Positions 48,203 through 62,603 of a DNA stretch of 64,000 nt are shown here, piece after piece. The position numbers were made by a program, and so were the translations under genes. Source of the stretch: Branchiostoma floridae (taxonomy: Eukaryota; Chordata; Leptocardii; Amphioxiformes; Branchiostomatidae). The stretch's first letter is position 1. Each line of letters starts with the position of its first letter. Below the pieces are notes generated by a model. It ran no database searches. It was not told the origin of the DNA and saw only the letters and a list, made by a program, of their open reading frames with translations. The stretch covers positions 20,306,646 to 20,370,645 of the forward strand of contig NC_049981.1 of assembly GCF_000003815.2 (NCBI RefSeq). The letters are read 5' to 3'.

Positions 48203-48260
48203 CTAGTAGTCCTGTGTAGCCAGACTACTCTGCATGTACTGCTGAAGAGCACTCAATCGG
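48118..48260 (-). repeat. 50-bp tandem repeat covering the CCDC61 stop codon
   Basis: AGCCAAGCTACT, AGCCAGGCTACT and AGCCAGACTACT start at 48118, 48168 and 48218, an exact 50-base period. On the minus strand the first copy is coding (the final SSLATQDY) and the others fall in the 3' UTR. Confidence 0.75.
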
Positions 48261-49828
48261 GCGTCGATTTCTGCCATTTCTGCAGACCGGTCATGGTAGC
48301 CACCACTGCTGACCTTCTGAACCCCTGCTGACCTCTTCCTGCGGGTAGATGTAGTGGCTGGGGTACTGGACAATCTCTTCCGGCTGTCAGGCCCCTCTGG
48401 TGTAGTCCATAGGTAAGAACTACTCGGTGGTTTGCGCTTCTTCAGAACTCCCTTCAACCTGCTTCTTGAAGGTTCATCGTTGTCTGACAGCACCCCTACA
48501 TCAGAAATGGACCCTGCTGATGACCTCCGGGTTCTGTTCCTGCCCACACTACCTGTACTGCCCACTGAGGATGATCGATTCCGCTCCCTCATAGGAGGGC
48601 GTTGTCTGGACCTGGTTCTCCCTCTCTCAGCAGGTGTGCCTCCTGTTCTCACCATGGACCTTGTTTCCCTTTTCCTTTTTTCTGCAGATTGTTGTTTCTT
48701 TAAGTTCTGTCTTTTCACGTATGCAGTGGGGTCAAACCTGGGTTTGCTGCCGATTGGTGATGGCGTTTTGATGTCAGAGTAGGACCGATAAGTCCTCTCT
48801 CTGGAACTGGAGCGGGACCTGAGACCTGGTCCACTACGGTCTCGGGATAATGACCGCTCTCGGGATAACGGCCTGTCTCGAAGTCTATCTCGTGAGCGGG
48901 AATTGGGTGCTTGCCCACTGCGGTCGCGAGATAATGATCGGTCTCGGAATCTGTCCCGTGAGGTGGACCGTTCCCGCGGCCCTCTCTTGTAAACCGCCAG
49001 CTCATTGGTGAGGCTCTTGACGCGTACTCTGAGGTTCCTCTCTGTTGCTCGGAGCTCCTCAAGCTCTTCCTGCAGCTCCTTGTAGGCCTGTGATTTCTTG
49101 TTGGCTGAACGCTGGTGTCGGGATCTCTCCTTCAGCAGCTCCTGCTCCAGGTTCTTTACAACCTGTTTAAGGACCCGGATCTCCTTTGCAGGGTTGCCCT
49201 TGGCAGTAGAGTCCACATCCCGTCTGAACTGCAAAAAGTCCTGCTCAATCTGCTCTTTTTCCTTGAGCAAGGTGCTGTAAGCCTTACGCAGTTTCCTGAA
49301 CTCACTGCCCTTATGATCTTGGTTTCCCTGTGTAGTCAGCCTACTGATTTGGTCGTTTAGTCTCCGGATGGTTTCTTGAAGTACAGCAGGATCAGGTTTT
49401 CCCACATAAGGAAGTGGTAGAGGGTAGTGGATTCTGTCAAACTCCACTGTATATGTAAGGATGAGATATCTCTTGGTGGTGAGTACCCCGACATGACTAG
49501 CAGGCAACGGTTTGGTGCCCACAAAACCTTTCTTTCCTCGCAGGGTTTCCAGGTCTGTGTAGGTCAGCAGGTCAAGTGTCACACTATCACAGGTCTGTGT
49601 GAGGGCTGATTCCAACATGTTGACAAAAATGGGGAATGACTTGTAGTTGCCTGTCTTATGTGTCAAGTCCTCTAAGTAAGAACTGCTGAAGGTCCCAGCC
49701 CACTGGTCAGCGGTCAGTTTGTCCTGTACCTCCACGGCCAGCTGGTCACCTCCCGTCACGTTCATGGTCACGGTGAACTCCGCCCCACGAAACGAGTAAG
49801 TCGCCACCATACTGGTCTCCTCACCCAT
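48203..49828 (-). CDS. CCDC61: CCDC61, centriole/basal-body coiled-coil protein
   Basis: CCDC61 (VFL3) is a centriole/basal-body protein of the SAS-6/XRCC4 fold group that helps orient basal bodies and centriolar satellites. The 541-residue product matches its head domain closely: TADQWAGTF, EDLTHKTGN, MLESALTQTCDSVTLDLLTY and FDRIHYPLPLPYVGKPDP. A coiled coil covers about residues 155-280 (heptads rich in L, E, K). An Arg/Ser/Asp-rich stretch follows (repeated SRDR/LSRER, about 285-345), then a basic tail ending SSLATQDY. The frame is a single uninterrupted ORF from ATG 49828 to TAG 48203, unusual beside its many-exon neighbours. A spliced 5' UTR (donor near 50069, acceptor 49863) is possible. 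CCDC61 and PBLD copy 1 start 530 bases apart, back to back. Confidence 0.93.
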   Translation of the reverse strand: MGEETSMVATYSFRGAEFTVTMNVTGGDQLAVEVQDKLTADQWAGTFSSSYLEDLTHKTGNYKSFPIFVNMLESALTQTCDSVTLDLLTYTDLETLRGKKGFVGTKPLPASHVGVLTTKRYLILTYTVEFDRIHYPLPLPYVGKPDPAVLQETIRRLNDQISRLTTQGNQDHKGSEFRKLRKAYSTLLKEKEQIEQDFLQFRRDVDSTAKGNPAKEIRVLKQVVKNLEQELLKERSRHQRSANKKSQAYKELQEELEELRATERNLRVRVKSLTNELAVYKRGPRERSTSRDRFRDRSLSRDRSGQAPNSRSRDRLRDRPLSRERSLSRDRSGPGLRSRSSSRERTYRSYSDIKTPSPIGSKPRFDPTAYVKRQNLKKQQSAEKRKRETRSMVRTGGTPAERGRTRSRQRPPMRERNRSSSVGSTGSVGRNRTRRSSAGSISDVGVLSDNDEPSRSRLKGVLKKRKPPSSSYLWTTPEGPDSRKRLSSTPATTSTRRKRSAGVQKVSSGGYHDRSAEMAEIDARLSALQQYMQSSLATQDY

Positions 49829-50358
49829 GGTAAATTTGTCCGGAATGCAACGTTACTCAATCCTGTGAATTTGGTGAAAGTGTTGAGTTGGTAAACAACA
49901 CAATCTTATTGTCTTCACGCAAATACCTTCTCAGTGAGAGATACCCAGTGCCCTTAATCATTGCTCGTTACCTCAAAAACATTTTGTTACGTTGATCCGT
50001 TACTAATTATTAACACACAGTGTTTATATCGGTTGAAGTTACCTTTAGTAAAGAAAGATAGTTCAAACCTGCCGCTCGTCAACCGTCGCCATGTTTGAAT
50101 GCCTTTACACACGGACTGTTCCACATAAACAACGATGGGGGGAAGTGACAATGTTGAGGTCGCAAATAAAGGTATAAAAAATTATATAAAAAGTTAAAAT
50201 GCTTAAGATTAAGATAGAATAGAAATTTAGATGGACTAGATCTTTAATTTCACATTGGTTCTATATAGATTTTCTAGGACAAACCATACGTAGAAACCCC
50301 CCGATAGTTTATTGGAATAAGTTTATGGAATATCGGTAGGTCAGAGTTCAAATTGAAG
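49829..50358. promoter_or_regulatory. Bidirectional promoter, CCDC61 and PBLD copy 1
   Basis: 530 bases between divergent start codons. On the CCDC61 side a CAAACATGGCGACGG motif (minus strand, about 50093) resembles a YY1 initiator and begins a short upstream ORF; on the PBLD side GAAGATGGCTGAC (50355-50367) overlaps the start codon. No TATA box seen. Confidence 0.4.
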
Positions 50359-53300
50359 ATGGCTGACCCCGACGTGAAAAAGTTACCCATCTTTCAAGTC
50401 GACGCTTTTACAGACAAACCATTCGCTGGAAACCCGGCAGCAGTTTGTCTGTTAGAAGATATGGTAGGTGTTTCTTCTGGAGAATCTTTATTCGCCGCAT
50501 CAACAGCAACATTTTGTTTTAAAACACAATTTAACCTCCCCTCCCTATAACATGCCATAATTCAAGTTTCATACTTCGTGAATTTTTGAAATTTAGGAGT
50601 TTGAAATGTAAATCTAGAGAGATTATTTTTAGTAAATACCTGATACCTAATAATACTTAATGATTTCTATGTGAGTTACACTTCGCTACCTGTGCTGTCA
50701 CAGTACTTTTTCTTCCCCCATTGGCCCCACTCCAGCCCCAAAAAAGTAGCTGTAGCTCATGATCAATAACGGAACATCGCCTGATTCTGTTTGGGGCAAA
50801 AATAACCACCCATTTCATTTTTTGTTTTCCTCATCTATTGCATATTGTTACTAAGATGTGCCTTTTTCAACAGGATTTGACAGAAGAACACCAACAAAAG
50901 ATTGCAGCAGAAATGAACCTGTCTGAGACAGCATATCTCCGCAAACTGAACCCTGGTGACGACTTTTCATCAAGTGAGAATACTTGGCAATACACATGGC
51001 TACTACTGTAAATAAGTTTGCGGGGATTTAATTTCACAGTAGCAGGAAAAAGTACTTTTCACGATGGTTCTAAGTTCGCGGCAACACCATACACTGTAGT
51101 CCCTTACTGCCATGGAAAAATGTTTGCGGCAGTTATAGATTCACGGTGAAGGGGGCCACCGCGAAAACCATGAACATTAAACCACCGCAAAAGTTTCTGC
51201 ATTTACAGTAGCTTGTTAAGATGATAATATTACTAAGATGCTTGGATGTGGTCACCATCCATTTCAACAAGATTCCAATCAATTTCCATCCACCCTTGGC
51301 CCCTGTTATTAAATCCCCCAAAAGGGTTACAAGCTTACTGTAAATTATACAAAGCAGCTACAAAAGCAGATATAAGCTGTGAATAAAAAATAAAAATGTC
51401 GGAAACAGATTCTAATATCAGAGAGTGCCAAAGTCTACTTCAAAGTCAAAGAAGAAGATGTGAGAGAACAAAAATGAAAGATGCACTGTTTAATGTATAC
51501 CAAAATCAATGTGTTCGGTTATTTGTTCAAACTTCTTTGACTTTGACTTTGACTTAGATTTCATAATGAAGGCTCCCAGTTCTCCCAGACTCTGGGTTCC
51601 CAGAGAATGTCATAGATATAATAGAATCAACATGACTTGATTATTAAAGATATGTCACACTTTTACAATTTGTTAAATCCATGAAGAAAGCTGCCCATTT
51701 GGTTATGGTATAAATAGAGTTGAGCATGGTTGGAAGTTGTTTTCAGACAGTTATGCAGGGCAGTTACATGTTCATGTTATCTACATTGCTGTATTGTAGG
51801 TTCCAAGTTTGGTCTCAGATGGTTCACTCCCACCAATGAAGTTGCTCTGTGTGGACATGCGACCCTGGCCTCTGCAGCTACTCTGTTCTACATGATGAGT
51901 AAGTAAAATTCTGTATGTCACAGTGTTTCCCTCTCTCAACACAATGATGACAGAAACATGTCAAGTATCTGGAGGCTGAGGAATGCATGTGTAATAGACA
52001 AAACCTTGCTCTCAATCACAATAAGTATACTATTGCATTTCAATGTTTATTCACCAAACCTGATGCTATATTATAGTTTTGTTATTACAGTAGTATCATA
52101 GTGAATAAAAGTTTCACTAAGGTAGAGTAAGAAGATAAACTTTTCTCCTCTGAGTCTGAAGTTCTGGTGGTAGCATGCTAGTGACTTTGTTGTCATGAGG
52201 ATTCAGAGCAGGGATAAAGTTAACTACATTTTGCTTTGGTCACGTTCAGCTTCAAACTCTCCCTTCAGAAAACCCCAGTTCCCAGCTGACGTTCCAGACC
52301 CTGAGTGGAGACCTGTTTGCCAGGAGGGAGGGAGATTTCATCTCACTGGACCTGCCTGAAAATAAGTCACAGCCTCAGGTGCAAACATACACACTGAATG
52401 TTTTATTTTGGCATTGATAATGTTCATTTGATTCATTGTTTAATATCACTAACTTCATCGCTGCTGACAAAATAACAAGTAACTGTGGACTAAAATGTGT
52501 CTGTTTTTATTTTTGCATCCAGGACAAAGAAACATATTCCCAGTTGCTTCAGGTAGGTCCTGTACTTGAAGTAGACTGTACACTTTGTCATGTTGTATAG
52601 ATAGTATGTGTCTGGCCAAAAGCACTTTCCAGTGTTTGCATCCTTGCTTCTATAGTATCATTTATGTGAGTTTTACTATATGTACAACATGTATATAAAG
52701 AAATAAGTGCACATTCTTCTTCTGTCCTAAAGATAGTGGTGGGGGACCTTCCTGTACAAGACCTTTTTGTGTCTCACACAGCCAAAAAGCTGGTAGTCAG
52801 GCTTCAAGATGGTACAACAAGGTCAGTAATGCCATGCGCCTATGTTGCACATGTTCTTGTAGGCACTTGTTGGCATGACCCCTATCAGAGACTTCCAGTA
52901 CTGCAGGTCTGTAGGAGGGGATCTCCTGGTGAGGCTTACAGATGATGCCACCAGGTCCGTGTAATGAACATCACTGAAATCTTGCCTATCAACAAGTATT
53001 CAAATGTATATTGTAAGAAAACTGTTGCTTCACTAACTTAGTTGCAAGGGAAGTGTATACATTGAAAGTACTGATAAGACAAACCAATTAAAGAAAACAT
53101 GCAATAGATGGTTGACAAGTTTGACTATTTTCCTGTAGATTGAGTACAGTATTCTGAATTCCTGCAGACAGACCTTGGAAAGTCTGAGGCCTGATACGGC
53201 GTCCATGTTAGCAGCCCACACTCAAGACATCATCAGAGGTGTCATTGTGACTGTCAAAGGTAACTATCTTAGATATCCGATCTTTGAATATATGTTTGGA

Positions 53301-54231
53301 GATCTGGATTACCCAATACTACAGTTCATGAAATACTTTTAACATGTAGTTTTGCATGCTTTATAGTCAAAAGTGTTTTTGTCCTGCTAGTACCAGTATG
53401 TTTTCACACATTAGATCAGACTCTGATATCAGTTTGCGTCTCTAACTAGACTTAATTTTTGTATCTCCTCAGGAAGTCTAGAGAATGGTTGTGTGGATAA
53501 TCACGGAGAAATGTGCGATTTCATCTCTCGTTATTTTGCGCCTTGGAATGGCATTCCAGAAGACCCAGTAACAGGGTCAGCTCATACTGTCCTGGCCAGC
53601 TACTGGGCTAAGGAGCTGGGGAAAACAGAATTCTATGGTAAGATGTTTATATAGCCCTGTCCCTGTCACATTGTGTACAATTTGCTGTATACCAGTAAAT
53701 AGATAAAGCCAATAGAAAAGTCAAAGTCAAACAGCAAGTGAAGATAATAACCTTTGTCTGTTACTAATATCTTTGATTGCCATACAACAAAGTTTGTTCT
53801 GCATAACTGCCTTAAGGTGTAACACACCAGTTCTTTAAAATTTTATAAGTATGTATAAGTTGTGTAAGGTTTGATTCATTCCCACTGGGATTGACCCCTA
53901 CTCTTTTTGATAAGCGAGATAGATTCTAATCAAATGTGACCTCCAGATTTACTTCCCATTCTAGAGGACATCCCTTATATACCAAAGCTGGGCACTCATA
54001 CGTGTTAAGTGCCTTTCCCAAGAGCACAACATGAGGGCCTGTTAGGAAATTGGAAGCCAGAACCTTAAGATTCTAAATCAGCAACACTAACAGCTTGTTT
54101 TGTCTGTCTGTCTGTTAGCTCGTCAGTGTTCTGCCAGGGGAGGGGACTTGAAGGTGAGACTGAGAGAAGACGGGAGAGTGGATGTTGCAGGGAAGGCTAC
54201 TGTTGTCTTACAGGGCATGATCAGGATATAA
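50359..54231 (+). CDS. PBLD: PBLD copy 1, PhzF-like isomerase family
   Basis: PBLD is the animal member of the PhzF/diaminopimelate-epimerase fold family; its substrate is not settled. Exons 50359-50463, 50874-50973, 51800-51898, 52269-52378, 52523-52552, 52733-52821 or 52863-52954, 53168-53259, 53473-53637 and 54119-54231 give 300 or 301 residues, against about 288 in human. The N-terminal VDAFTDKPFAGNPAAVCLL, MNLSETAY with the Glu that is catalytic in PhzF, CGHATLAS, and DPVTGSAHTVLASYW are all present. ATG 50359 is chosen because it lies in an AAGATGGC context and gives 35 codons in exon 1, as in copy 2. The two versions of exon 6 are of matching phase and appear mutually exclusive. Likely poly(A) signal AATAAA at 54365. 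Confidence 0.92.
51003..51210. mobile_element. MITE with CTACTGTAAAT ends
   Basis: CTACTACTGTAAATAAGTTT at the left and, inverted, GCTACTGTAAATGCAGAAAC at the right, with TTTGCGG and TTTAAT sub-terminal motifs also inverted. A worn relative lies at 60005-60100. Located in a PBLD copy 1 intron. Confidence 0.65.
52733..52821 (+). other. PBLD: PBLD copy 1 exon 6a
   Basis: 89 nt, enters in phase 0 and leaves in phase 2, encoding IVVGDLPVQDLF, then KKLVVRLQDGTTR. Its VQD and KLVVRL pattern is closer to human PBLD (VQDI, KLLVRL) than exon 6b is. Acceptor CCTAAAG/A, donor AG/GTCAGT. Confidence 0.8.
52863..52954 (+). other. PBLD: PBLD copy 1 exon 6b (duplicate, probably alternative)
   Basis: 92 nt, acceptor TTCTTGTAG/G, donor AG/GTCCGT, phase 0 to phase 2 as in 6a. 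It encodes ALVGMTPIRDF, then CRSVGGDLLVRLTDDATR. It resembles exon 6 of PBLD copy 2 (SVGGDLLIRIPDSITR), which is also 92 nt. The gap to 6a is only 41 nt. Confidence 0.75.
53870..54095 (-). repeat. tRNA-derived SINE, family A copy 3
   Basis: Minus-strand element with GTTGTGCTCTTGGGAAAGGC and a body ending with AAGGGATGTCCTCTAGAATG, related to the copies at 18545 and 39325. The head is decayed. It lies in the last intron of PBLD copy 1, antisense to it. Confidence 0.5.
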
Positions 54232-55419: not shown

Positions 55420-58400
55420 ATGGCTGCCATTGGTCAGAAGTGGGTTCCTCTGTACCAAGTTGATGCCTTCACTGACCAGCCATTCGGAGGCAACGCCGCA
55501 GCTGTGTGTCTCCTGGGAGATGAGGTTGGTAGGATGTGAAATGGGACGTTGAACTTAATATGGATCTTGTTAATTGCACGAAGTACTGTACTGCTATATT
55601 CCTTGCTTGCATTGTAGTCAAGCCTAGTAGTAGTGACCAGTAGATCTGGAACTAAAGCCTGCTCCATGCAAGGCCTATCTCTAGACCTCAAGCTTCCTTT
55701 CTTTTAGAACAAAGTATTGGTATTGGACCAGATTAAGCTTTTTTTTCGCGAAGTGGCTATCATTTGCTTATTGTTCGGCTCCATTTTTGTAGTGTCAAAA
55801 TTTATTCCAAATCGGAACCTTAAGAAGAAGAGAGACAAGTTCCTCGAAATTGATCTTTTAATCTAACCTGTTCAGTAAAAAAAATTGACTGCACAGCAAA
55901 CGTCCCATTCTGATCCATTCCTGAGCCACAGGAGCTAACTGATGACCATCTACAGAAGATTGCGGCTGAGATGAACCAGTCTGAGACTGCCTTCATCTGT
56001 AAACTGTCACCTCAGGATGACTTCATCTCCAGTAAGGCTGGTTATTCAATGTACACGTAGACACGTTCAAAATACAAAAAAATGCCCCTACCTCTGAGGT
56101 GTCGCCAAAATAATTTTGTAATACCATCTGTATAACAGTAATATTAATCTACTACATAGGTCAGCTCAGTGCCAAAGAATGGTTTTAAACCATAATTTAT
56201 CATATAACTATACATTGTACTAGTAAGTAATGATACTATTGGACGAACTGTACTCAGGTTTACGTGTTTTTTTTTTTTTTTTGGTGTCATATGGGCTGGT
56301 CACACACACTGTCTGTGATGGTTTAAAGGTAATATATGAAAGTCTGTTTTGCCCCACCATTCTCCATTTTGCAGGTTCTGTATTCAGATTGCGATGGTTC
56401 ACCCCTGTGAGTGAAATGCTCCTGTGTGGCCATGCCACTCTGGCATCAGCTGGTGCTCTCTTCTATGTCATCAGTGAGTCAACACAGCTTCTTTTTGGCA
56501 ATGTAGTTTTGGCAATGCCATGTAGTTGACACAGTATGATGAATCGAAAGGAAACAAACTATAGTCCTTAAAACTGGTGCAACCTTCAAGTTTGGAGTGC
56601 CATAAAATGTTAATACAAAATATTCTCACTTCATTTCATAAGCTGACTTAAAAGTAGGCTACACTACAAGGCTTCTGGTATTTCTGCTCCCTCATGAATA
56701 TAGAAAACCCCAGTTCCCAGCTGACCTTCCAGACCCTGAGTGGAGACCTGTTTGCCAGGAGGGAGGGAGATTTCATCTCACTGGACCTGCCTGAAAATAA
56801 GTCACAGCCTCAGGTGGGAACACCAGTGCTGTCACACTTAAGCACTGGAACACAATTTTGTTTACAAAATGTTTACAAAAGTGTTTTGTATACTTGGTTG
56901 GAATCAAGGGATCTCTGTCAGATTGATTGGCCATTAATAACTCTCATACATCAATAGTCTTCCTCATTGACACAAAAAATGCAACATGTAGTCCCTAAGG
57001 CAGGAAAATCTTAAGTACAAAAAATTATCATTTTATATTAAACAGGATAAGCAACAACATTGAATGATTTTCCTCTTAAATGATGTTTTGTTTTCTTTTG
57101 TAGGATGGTGGAAAATACAAGGACTTAATAAAGGTTCGTCAACTTACCATTTTGTTCAGTGACCGACATTTTACTGCTTTGAGCCTGCCTATCTTGGTAA
57201 TTGTCTCTGTAGCTATTGTTCACTCAACGAGTTATATATTTCAAGTGACATCTATACTCTTCTTCAGCATCACTACAAGTAGATACTATTTAAGATTACT
57301 ATTTAAGATTCTTTCAGTCTAAGTAAGCATAGGGCCAAATGGGTATTTTTCACCAAGGAATTATGTTTACCTAATATGTATTGATCAAAACGTATACCCA
57401 CATTTATACTGCAATATCTACATAATAGACTGGAAAAATATGGAGATTGAGTCATATTGATCTGACTTCCCCGAATTGTGATGTTCCCCGTCAGGCTACC
57501 ATTGGCTCCTTCCCTGTTCAAGAAGTCCGCTTCTGTAGTTCCGTTGGAGGGGACCTGCTGATCAGGATACCTGACAGCATCACAAGGTCAGTCAGATCTG
57601 TTATTCCTTCCTACCCTATATGTGACCTATTTTATACCAGTTCTGCAGTTTGGTATACAAGTGTGTATTTTGTATGTTCTTGGTTCACAAATAGCATACA
57701 GACTTTAGTTCCTTTGTACCTTTACAGAGAACAGTTTGAGAAGATGACACCAGACATCCAAGGCATGATGGCTGCCCACCAAGAAGAGATAAGAGGAGTT
57801 ATAGTCACATTGAAAGGTATGTCTAAAAGATGTTCATGAAGGATTTCTCTTACATGGGATGAAAATTTGTTAAGAATTCTCATAAATAAACCACCTTTAT
57901 TGACAGGGATGAAATTCAATGCATATCTTTTCTAACTTTCATTGCACTACAATTCCAGTTGATGGTCATAATTTCATAATTTCAGGAAGCCTGGAGAATG
58001 GTTGTGTTGATGATGAGGGAGTCCAGTATGACTTTGTCTCTCGTTTCTTTGACCCCTGGAGCGGTCTGCCAGAAGACCCAGTAACAGGGTCAGCACATAC
58101 AGTCCTGGCCAGCTACTGGGCTAAGGAGCTGGGCAAGACTGAGTTCTATGGTAAGTTTGTATATTTTGATGTGGTCTTGTATTTTCATGATTGACACTTC
58201 AAGTTTCCATGTTTTCCAGGGCTGTCTTTGATTTTTTCCATCCCACTCATTGTTGGGTAGCCTATAAGCCTAGATTAATCAATCATTGTTTTTTGTTGTT
58301 AAATCTGTATTTCCATGCTGTAGTTAAAGAGTTACACATTGAACTGTTGTTCCACAGCCCGCCAATGTTCCCAGAGAGGGGGTGTGCTGAGGGTGAGACT

Positions 58401-58470
58401 GAGGGGGGATGGCAGGGTGGATGTCAAGGGGCAGGCTGTTGTTGTAACAACTGGCAAGATTAGAATATAA
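55420..58470 (+). CDS. PBLD: PBLD copy 2, PhzF-like isomerase family
   Basis: Tandem paralogue of the preceding gene with the same nine-exon plan: 55420-55524, 55932-56031, 56375-56473, 56704-56813, 57104-57133, 57495-57586, 57728-57816, 57986-58150 and 58358-58470. It encodes 300 residues. Seven of nine exon lengths equal those of copy 1 exactly; the exceptions are exon 6 (92 nt, equal to exon 6b) and exon 7 (89 against 92). Family signatures are VDAFTDQPFGGNAAAVCLL, MNQSETAF, CGHATLAS and DPVTGSAHTVLASYW. ATG 55420 (AAAATGGCTGCC) gives the same 35-codon first exon as copy 1; an upstream in-frame ATG at 55375 is possible. The copies are well diverged except in exon 4 and part of exon 8. AATAAA at 59028 is a likely poly(A) signal. 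Confidence 0.92.
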
Positions 58471-59302: not shown

Positions 59303-62300
59303 TTATAGATCAGGCTGTAGCCTAGTCTCCAGGCCATGGCAGGGGTGCTGCAGTCTGTACTGCATGAGGCTGAGGCCTGACTGGTGCCACCAGTAAAATG
59401 CCGCCACCACGATCAGGTGCCACCATTGGTGGCTGTGTCCCACATAGTCCACCTTACCTGGACAGAGGAGATACAGAAGATGACACTGTGACCTTGTTTC
59501 CAGAAAGGAGAAAATGAAGTGTTTGAGGTGATTTTGAGTTTGAGGTGCTATAGAGTGACATGAAGTAAAGGAAACACTGGAGCATTTACAGACAGACAAT
59601 CTGAAACCACCTACTACTACTAGTAACTTGGCAACCACAAATGGACAGAACAGTCACTTTTGGCAGTGTACCATGATCATTGTTGAAAAGTGGCTATTCT
59701 GCCAAAAAAGCTATCAAGGAAAAGTACAGTTATGCTTAAGTCGTACAAATACTCATCTGCCAATGTATCTCTACTATGATGATTTTCTGTCAATAAAGAC
59801 ATTCAAGGAAAGAAGGATGATAACAAGGCACAAAGTGAACACAGGCCTAGTCTTTGAATCTTCAATACAGATTTATTAAGAACATGAAGCCAAGTTAAAG
59901 CCATAATGCCTCAAACACACCTGTACAATGTATTGTACATACATGTAGCTCTTAGCAAGGAGTTTTTAACCTCTTAGGTAAGTGCGTAGGTGGGCAGACG
60001 AAAGAACAAAAATTTTCATGGTGGTTTTGTGTTCACGTTGAAGCAGTGACTGCGAAAATAAACCACTTTAAAAATTTCTATACTTATAGTATGCTGTAAG
60101 AAAGACCAAGATATGTTTGCAGTGGCAGTACCTACCTGGCAAGCAGCGCTCAGGCACCTTAGTACCATAAAACACCAGAGCAAGAACCCCTAGGAAGTAC
60201 ATTATCACTACCTTTGGGAAGAACACCTGGAAAATGAAGGGGATATCTCTGTTATCAAACTGTTAAACAGTTTTTACTTACCTGGCACACATCTCTCAGG
60301 TATTTGAGTAAAGTAGATTAAAAATCCTACAATTCCAATGGAGTAGAACACAGTGACTTGAAGAATAACCGTCTAAAATATAAAACAAATCACATAGACA
60401 GTTTAGGTATTTACTGTAGCATATTACGTGTGCAGCATAGTGATACAAGAAGTTCAGGCCACTGTTCTAGTACCAAGCTTCTTGTTCCTTGGAGAGGAAT
60501 ATAAGATGTTACAATGGAGATTGAGGAGAGCCACACCTTGAGTATGTTAAAGTACCCACCACACTTACTGAAAAGAGTGCGGATCCTTTGGTGTGAGTGG
60601 ATAAAAAATATTATAATTTATACATCTTATCTGGATAAGCGGCTTGTACTCTTCAGTACAAACCTGGTGAGGTATACTATGACGGCATGAGGACATTTAG
60701 CAGGTACAAAAACACACGACATCCTACCACATGTTATGCCCGTGTAAGGACATTTCACGCACCTGTACCATAGGCTGATTCCACCCCCCACTGATGAATA
60801 TCCAGTGAACAGCTGGGCAGACCCCGTAGGCGACGAGTGCAGAGAACAGGGCCAGCCTGCGACTGGACCAGGCGGCTGACAGGAAGTGTGGGTGGAGCTG
60901 CATCACCAATGTTACTGCGACTAACACTGTCACCAGCAACAGGTACAGGTCTCGCCAAAACTGGGGAACAATCAACCAACCAATCACTCGCTTTCAATGT
61001 CAGTTACAAGTCACTTGCAAGATAAAGTCAAACTTGTCTTAGACAATCACCCAGAGGACCAACAATGGTCTTCTCAGACACATGGTCTTCTTACAAAAAA
61101 AGAGAAAGTGACAAGACAAAGATACAGATTCAAAGCTTATGTCCTTTAATTATTGACAAGTACAAATGTACCATTACAAACATCAGGAAAAGTTACTATT
61201 TTATACAAAGCTTGCAAAATGTACATATACATCTAGAATTTTGTTCAACTTCAAGGTGTGTCTTACCAAGTTACAGTAGTAAGCATAGTAAACTCCAGGA
61301 AAGTAACAGCCCATAACTCCGACTGAGATTCCAGCCAGATCCAGGGACAGCCAGCGGCGAGCGACTCTCTCTGATACATGGCAGCAGAGAAGATGATAGC
61401 CAGCAGAACACAGCATACAAAACTGGACATAACAAGGGAAACAAATGATGGGTCAAGGCTGATAATATTAGTACTGGTGTTAGATCTACGGTAGAATAAC
61501 CGGTATAGATGATATTAAAATATAAATTTGTTCTGTTTTTCAAGTAGAAATCAAATTCACAGATGAAGGCCCGTAACTTTCAAACTGATGTAGCAGTTCT
61601 TGTCTGGACCATGATTAATACATGTCCAGATGTGTTTTGTTTAATTCTAAGTGGCCTTTTTCTTTGACATATTACACACAATGCACATTGCTGCACATGT
61701 GTAGCTTAAACCATGAACAGGCTTATCAGACATATCAATATTGTTGGAATAGAAATGTACAGATAAAATGGATTAGAAGACATGGACCACCTGGAAGCAT
61801 GCAAGGAACACAGTATAGATGAGATGGTCGTTGTAAGTCCCATGGACCCCCGGAATGGTCACCAGGTTGTCATAGACACCCAGGATGAAGAACAGAACAA
61901 AGCCCAGCAGGTGACTCCAGATGTTCACTGTCTCATTGGACAGCACACACAGACTGGAACAAAGAAATTACTAGTACATTTGTATCTCATTTCCCTGGAT
62001 ACATTTAGGCAATAGCAATTCTGAAAGAAATTGTAGCACTGATTTTGTCTACAAATACACATTGACATGCGATATGAGCGATTGCGTGGATGACACGGAC
62101 ATAGTTTTAGGTAAAAAAATATAATGGTTTTATAAAAGGCAGTGGTAGATTAATTAACATGTTAATTGGTAGTATGATCTGCTAACTTTGATGTTGATTA
62201 ATAAATCCTATCTGCCATTATCCATTAGCTTACCAGTTGCCAAATACCCTGGATATAGATAAAAAACAGTTATTGCTCGTATTAGTATAAACAAGGTCTT

Positions 62301-62603
62301 GATAAAACCTTCTTGGTATAAAACGTCATATGTCAAAACCAACATGATAACTATAAAGTTTACAACACTACTGATGACTTAAACTTGATTGTAATAATGG
62401 AAACCCAATGCCATGCCTTACATTAGTTACAAGCCTTACCTTTTCAGACATAGTGCAGTGGGCAGGTATGCCCTGTACCCACCCACCACATACGGGTTCC
62501 CCTTCAGGAAATTGGGGATATCGTCATAACCATACAGCTGGATCCCATAGCTGTCAGACTTGGTGCTGAACACCTCAGGAAAGCTCAGCCCAGCCTCCTC
62601 CAT
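59303..62603 (-). CDS. PAQR3: PAQR3, Golgi seven-transmembrane PAQR-family protein
   Basis: In mammals PAQR3 (RKTG) is a Golgi membrane protein that sequesters Raf kinases. Exons on the minus strand: 62603-62440, 61953-61791, 61422-61267, 60960-60763, then 60372-60282 or 60226-60136, then 59457-59303. They give 308 residues, against 311 in human. Matching stretches: NPYVVGGYRAYLP, LSNETVNIWSHLLGFVLFF, LCSAGYHLLCCH, RRWLSLDLAGISVGVMGCY, PAVHWIFISGG and GHSHQWWHLIVVAAFYWWHQS. The His residues of SHLLG and HSHQWWH, metal ligands in related adiponectin receptors, are kept. ATG 62603 follows a plausible acceptor (CCTGCCAG), suggesting an upstream 5' UTR exon. The fifth coding exon exists in two versions. 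Confidence 0.93.
60005..60100 (-). repeat. Decayed relative of the CTACTGTAAAT MITE
   Basis: On the minus strand TACTATAAGTATAGAAATTT, then AAAGTGGTTTATTTTCGCAG, follows the order of motifs at the right end of the element at 51003-51210. Only one end is recognisable. Confidence 0.4.
60136..60226 (-). other. PAQR3: PAQR3 exon 5b (duplicate, probably alternative)
   Basis: 91 nt, acceptor TTTTCCAG, donor G/GTAGGT, same phases as 5a. It encodes VFFPKVVIMYFLGVLALVFY, then GTKVPERCLPG, and is closer to human PAQR3 (APRVIVMY, KVPERYFPG) than 5a. The intervening gap is 55 nt. Confidence 0.8.
60282..60372 (-). other. PAQR3: PAQR3 exon 5a
   Basis: 91 nt, acceptor TATTTTAG, donor G/GTAAGT, phase 0 to phase 1. 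It encodes TVILQVTVFYSIGIVGFLIY, then FTQIPERCVPG. The first part is a hydrophobic transmembrane segment. Confidence 0.75.

Follow-up and report, generated by a model that had tools for sequence, protein, structure and literature searches.

The stretch of Branchiostoma floridae DNA analysed here (the window: 64,000 nucleotides (nt), C3:20306646-20370645) carries on its minus strand, from window position 62603 down to 59303, a gene in which the exon encoding the sixth transmembrane helix is present in two versions, 5A and 5B. AG and GT stand at all internal borders of the gene model (Table 1), and judged by its sequence the product is a PAQR-family (HlyIII, PAQR3-like) membrane protein with seven helices. 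The Pfam domain HlyIII (PF03006) is matched over residues 59-279 with 173.9 bits when the model contains 5B and 170.1 bits when it contains 5A, against a cut-off of 26.2. ADIPOR1/ADIPOR2 chains (5lxg, 5lx9) are matched over residues 23-297 and 24-292, ADIPOR1 with 136.5 bits for the 5B form and 135.1 for the 5A form, and ADIPOR2 with 126.5 bits for the 5A form and 123.9 for the 5B form. The His/Asp motifs expected for a metal site are present: exon 3 has YH and LSLDLAG, exon 6 has GHSHQWWH, and they align to the ADIPOR1 chain. We take the YHLLCCH, LSLDLAG and GHSHQWWH regions to supply the metal ligands, and the choice of zinc-binding residues within them is likewise our assumption. The name PAQR3 is provisional and follows the motifs, general knowledge of the family and the label given in an earlier reading of the bare letters (the sequence-only reading).

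Table 1. Window positions of the exons of the PAQR3-like gene and of the short intron between the two helix-VI exons.
Feature	Position	Strand	Remarks
Exon 1	62440..62603	-	From presumed ATG, MEEAGLSFPEV...LCLK
Exon 2	61791..61953	-	HlyIII match at C3:20368388-20368588
Exon 3	61267..61422	-	YHLLCCH and LSLDLAG; HlyIII match at C3:20367903-20368106
Exon 4	60763..60960	-	Phase 0 end at CAG/gtgcgt
Exon 5A	60282..60372	-	91 nt; helix-VI exon, first version
Intron 5A/5B	60227..60281	-	55 nt; separates the two versions of the helix-VI exon
Exon 5B	60136..60226	-	91 nt; helix-VI exon, second version; nearer to paralogue C18 than 5A
Exon 6	59303..59457	-	GKVDYVGHSHQWWH; helix VII and stop

The sequence-only reading had described 5A and 5B as two exons of 91 nt with equal phases and good splice sites, and we recovered the same coordinates, lengths, phases and borders. 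Both exons are entered in phase 0 and left in phase 1. Exon 5A is bounded by tattttag/ACG...CCAG/gtaagt (5' splice site CAG/gtaagt) and 5B by cattttccag/GTG...CCAG/gtaggt (5' splice site CAG/gtaggt), and their products are TVILQVTVFYSIGIVGFLIYFTQIPERCVP(G) and VFFPKVVIMYFLGVLALVFYGTKVPERCLP(G), respectively. Translation of the spliced models gives a protein of 308 amino acids with the same stop whichever of the two is used. Joining both had been predicted to break the frame, and this is what the models show: 5A followed by 5B shifts the frame and runs into a stop inside 5B. When the 55-nt intron is retained, a TAA follows two codons after 5A, although the length of 237 nt is itself in frame, and when both exons are skipped the frame shifts and is lost in exon 6. 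All three of these forms would be truncated ahead of helix VII and the metal motif that it carries, so a full protein requires one, and only one, of the two exons. The pair thus has the features by which tandem-duplicate exclusive exons are recognized, namely adjacent homologous exons of the same phases and compatible length, with no full protein when both or neither are included.

The relationship between the two exons is clear at the protein level. Their peptides are identical at 11/31 positions and positive at 20/31, with a BLOSUM62 score of 75 that was reached by none of 100,000 shuffles of the 5A peptide (maximum 40). With the PERCxPG end removed, the remaining residues 1-23 score 32, a value reached by 40/100,000 shuffles. 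When the 30,284 stop-free 31-mers from all six frames of the window, 5A and 5B among them, were compared with 5B, the top two were 5B and 5A and the third scored 28; this six-frame scan against 5B found no third copy of the exon in the window. At the DNA level, 47/91 bases are identical, distributed very unevenly among codon positions: 24/30 at position 2 (composition predicts 34.6%; p = 4.5e-7), 12/30 at position 1 (p = 0.049 against composition) and 10/30 at position 3 (23.7% predicted; p = 0.15), the difference between positions 2 and 3 being significant by Fisher's test (p = 2.9e-4). On these comparisons the pair is an old exon duplication whose silent sites are near saturation and whose protein is conserved, with both copies under protein-level constraint. 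Silent sites so close to saturation, together with a protein sequence that has been kept, argue that neither exon is a drifting duplicate, and no other observation speaks as strongly for the use of both.

The paralogues in the same genome suggest that the duplication took place in this gene. A protein search of the assembly (513 Mb, 431 contigs) returned 43 matches, and these, together with the HlyIII matches, show that the genome has at least seven other PAQR3-like genes with several exons. The seven that we read lie at C3:30.52, C3:31.52-31.54 (two genes), C7:13.29, C9:7.71, C2:10.14 and C18:9.38 Mb; an ADIPOR-like gene on C5, where the border is different, and C140, with only an exon-2-like stretch that contains a stop, were left out of the count. 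A separate helix-VI exon ending in CCAG/gt, in the same phase, is present in all seven. Searches with 5A, 5B, some of the paralogue exons and each paralogue's own exon found a second helix-VI exon in 0/7, with masked bases (N) making up 6,545 of 29,501 at the C3:31.5 locus, which holds two of the paralogues, and 1,966 of 9,901 at the C2 locus. As a positive control, the own-exon search recovers 5A from 5B at E 5.7e-8. The remaining matches in this search are the exon of a neighbouring paralogue or weak hits (E 0.015-1) that are short, lack PER..PG, contain stops or lie elsewhere. Tandem groups of HlyIII-family matches also occur, four on C12 and two on C4.

In a panel of 10 helix-VI segments, in which the C9 segment was entered short (21 residues) and the C2 segment two residues short, 5A and 5B are reciprocal best partners with a score of 75, followed by 5B with C18 (67) and 5A with the C3_31a paralogue (57). 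We considered whether 5A was instead copied from a paralogue. Its similarity to C3_31a (13/31 identical, score 57) exceeds that of 5B (9/31, score 35), yet the best partner of 5A is 5B; the tree described below cannot decide on this origin, and we did not retain it. The reciprocal best relationship and the single exon found in the paralogues indicate that the helix-VI exon was most likely duplicated inside the PAQR3-like gene, long ago, as far as the segments compared allow this to be read.

We infer from these observations, with considerable confidence, that 5A and 5B are mutually exclusive exons, both expressed, that swap helix VI so that each productive mRNA carries one of them. Exon 4 would be joined to either 5A or 5B, and the chosen exon to exon 6. 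Splicing of 5A to 5B would probably be disfavoured, as a branch point inside the 55-nt intron would have to lie within about 45 nt of the 5A 5' splice site, less than the limit of about 50 nt described for binding of the U1 and U2 small nuclear ribonucleoproteins to one intron. Any product that slipped past such a steric block would be out of frame and without helix VII. Predicted branch points, taken as the adenines of YTNAY motifs, lie 19, 27 and 47 nt from the 5A 5' splice site, and the last of these, 9 nt short of the 3' end of the intron, is too near it to be a likely branch point. In OGDH, exclusivity is imposed by branch points closer than about 50 nt to the 5' splice site through a proposed steric limit, for which the study cites work on SV40 and alpha-tropomyosin (PMC7969005). 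By this analogy, steric enforcement would be expected in the PAQR3-like gene as well. Control of the choice by RNA structure was also considered and rejected: the 55-nt intron has a folding z of -0.63, with 51/200 shuffles folding at least as well, and an 86-nt stretch has a z of 0.13, longer-range pairing lying outside this search.

Several observations weigh against exclusive use of two functional exons or against parts of that argument. The 5A form scores slightly under the 5B form for HlyIII and ADIPOR1, and slightly over it for ADIPOR2. Any two membrane helices will share second codon positions to some degree, although the tests took composition into account. Maximum-likelihood analysis of nine of the ten helix-VI segments gave a poorly supported tree (supports 43-70). 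The differences between 5A and 5B showed no clustering on one face of the helix (p 0.17-0.45). The 301 bases around the pair match only one place in the assembly, themselves, so there is no allele for comparison. When exon 4 is joined to 5B, the branch point used may sit further upstream, within 5A or ahead of it. Finally, one report describes splicing of human introns 43-65 nt long (PMC8363638). The sequence-only reading had regarded the 55-nt gap as very short for an intron; the length and its shortness stand, but in view of those human introns the gap by itself is no proof against joint splicing. Since such introns can be spliced and the branch point in ours is only predicted, the frame break is a safer argument for exclusivity than the steric limit.

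Three other explanations of the pair were weighed. The first, which we regard as unlikely, is that 5B alone is used and that 5A is a relic of the duplication, either unspliced or giving only non-functional RNA. The greater closeness of 5B to paralogue C18 (67, vs 50 for 5A) would fit this, and 5B is presumably also nearer to vertebrate PAQR3 than 5A is. A relic would not be expected to look like 5A, however: with silent sites down to 10/30 it still agrees with 5B at 24/30 second positions and retains an open frame, V6, Y10, G13, Y20, PERCxPG and its AG/GT borders. Less probable again is an arrangement that is not strictly exclusive, in which the 55-nt intron is spliced out of some transcripts, the mRNA with both exons then serving as a regulated dead end that lowers the protein level. 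Early stops in both the joined and the retained-intron forms are compatible with this, as are the human introns of similar length (PMC8363638), but with the branch point so near the 5' splice site the efficiency expected from the OGDH study (PMC7969005) is low, and a dead-end exon would have no need of the protein sequence that both copies have kept. Lancelet genomes are very polymorphic, which could favour an assembly artefact, for example two alleles or paralogues wrongly set next to each other. Against this, the two exons, identical at 47/91 nt, differ far more than alleles would, the 301-base stretch has a single place in the assembly by DNA search and neither exon corresponds to a helix-VI exon in the seven paralogues that we read, so that we consider an artefact highly improbable.

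A second exon pair lies nearby on the plus strand, in a gene for which we use the name PBLD given by the sequence-only reading. The pair mentioned there is present, at 52733-52821 (89 nt) and 52863-52954 (92 nt) with a gap of 41 nt, and inclusion of both (181 nt) would shift the frame. Two tandem PBLD-like copies, at about 50386-54216 and 55447-58455 (+), stand tail to tail with the PAQR3-like gene, and 8/8 exon peptides of the first were found in the second. The peptide of the second duplicate exon is matched once in the downstream copy (57522-57590). One exon peptide, 52268-52378 vs 56703-56813, is identical at 37/37 residues. Identity in the other seven is about 55-82%, a contrast suggestive of recent gene conversion. 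The 14 gaps between matched PBLD exon peptides measure 138-856 nt and overstate the introns, and the 511-nt gap holds the first duplicate exon. The other five introns of the PAQR3-like gene, calculated from the exon coordinates, are 486, 368, 306, 390 (to 5A) and 678 nt (from 5B), so the background against which the 55-nt intron appears short is a small one of five introns and 14 gaps. A search of the open-licence literature for a figure on the shortest lancelet introns found none. Elsewhere in the window, an open frame at 48203-49852 (-) encodes 549 amino acids with R/S-rich stretches and may resemble CCDC61.

The two 308-residue proteins differ only in helix VI and in the loop leading into GHSHQWWH, and the exons with the metal motifs, 3 and 6, are common to both. 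V6, Y10, G13, Y20, T22, PERC and PG are common to the two versions, and their differences include positions 4-5, which are LQ in 5A and PK in 5B (L4/P4, Q5/K5), and Q23/K23. Although V6, Y10, G13 and Y20 appear as a stripe, conservation of one face of the helix was not significant when tested (p 0.17-0.45), and we do not propose it. Studies of PAQR proteins in Caenorhabditis elegans may give insight into what such a swap could change. There, the transmembrane part of PAQR-2 decides whether the partner IGLR-2 is needed, the transmembrane part of PAQR-1 combined with the N terminus of PAQR-2 acts as a gain of function, and PAQR barrels are described as opening cytosolically onto a cavity with zinc (PMC7428288). 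With the metal motifs in constitutive exons, these findings lead us to expect a different dependence on partners or lipids and not a loss of the core. The swap would thus most likely tune the partner or lipid dependence of a shared catalytic core.

A broader proposal, which is possible but which we hold to be doubtful, is that the pair is an old, lancelet-wide splice switch in which one helix of a PAQR lipid hydrolase is exchanged and the metal site left untouched. It would yield two enzymes or sensors that differ in the lipids or partners on which they depend, and exclusivity would be built into an intron too short for splicing. If this were true, the PBLD pair with its 41-nt gap would make such locked exon pairs a recurrent lancelet device. 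PAQR proteins have a metal-dependent core, and their partner and lipid specificity is poorly understood; the exchange of one helix in an otherwise identical protein appears to be a natural experiment on the role of helix VI. For steric enforcement, the 55-nt intron separating the duplicate exons offers a compact test case, the five other introns of this gene being 306-678 nt long.

Comparison with other members of the family and with known exon pairs may help to place these observations. ADIPOR1, ADIPOR2 and PAQR3 share the PAQR/HlyIII family with this gene, and the 5A/5B pair differs from the single helix-VI exon found in each of the seven lancelet paralogues. To our knowledge, vertebrate ADIPOR1, ADIPOR2 and PAQR3 have no second helix-VI exon. 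The PBLD pair in the same window also consists of tandem homologous exons with a short gap but, unlike 5A/5B, encodes no membrane helix. OGDH exons 4a/4b are separated by an intron of 118-131 nt in birds and mammals, with distant branch points that were mapped (PMC7969005), whereas the whole intron of the PAQR3-like gene is 55 nt and its branch point is predicted only. The IIIb/IIIc exons of amphioxus Fgfr, a lancelet receptor gene, resemble 5A and 5B in having arisen by tandem exon duplication. They are mutually exclusive, with reverse transcription PCR data, and concern an immunoglobulin domain and ligand choice, with involvement of Esrp (PMC5703972), whereas the PAQR3-like pair concerns a membrane helix. 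Among the papers listed in searches of the open-licence literature we found no report of a mutually exclusive exon pair in a PAQR gene, a result that counts only weakly towards novelty. Alternative splicing of homologous exons in a mutually exclusive manner is well known and enriched in membrane proteins (PMC7954323), and on the sequence features described here the 5A/5B pair looks like a good new example of this kind.
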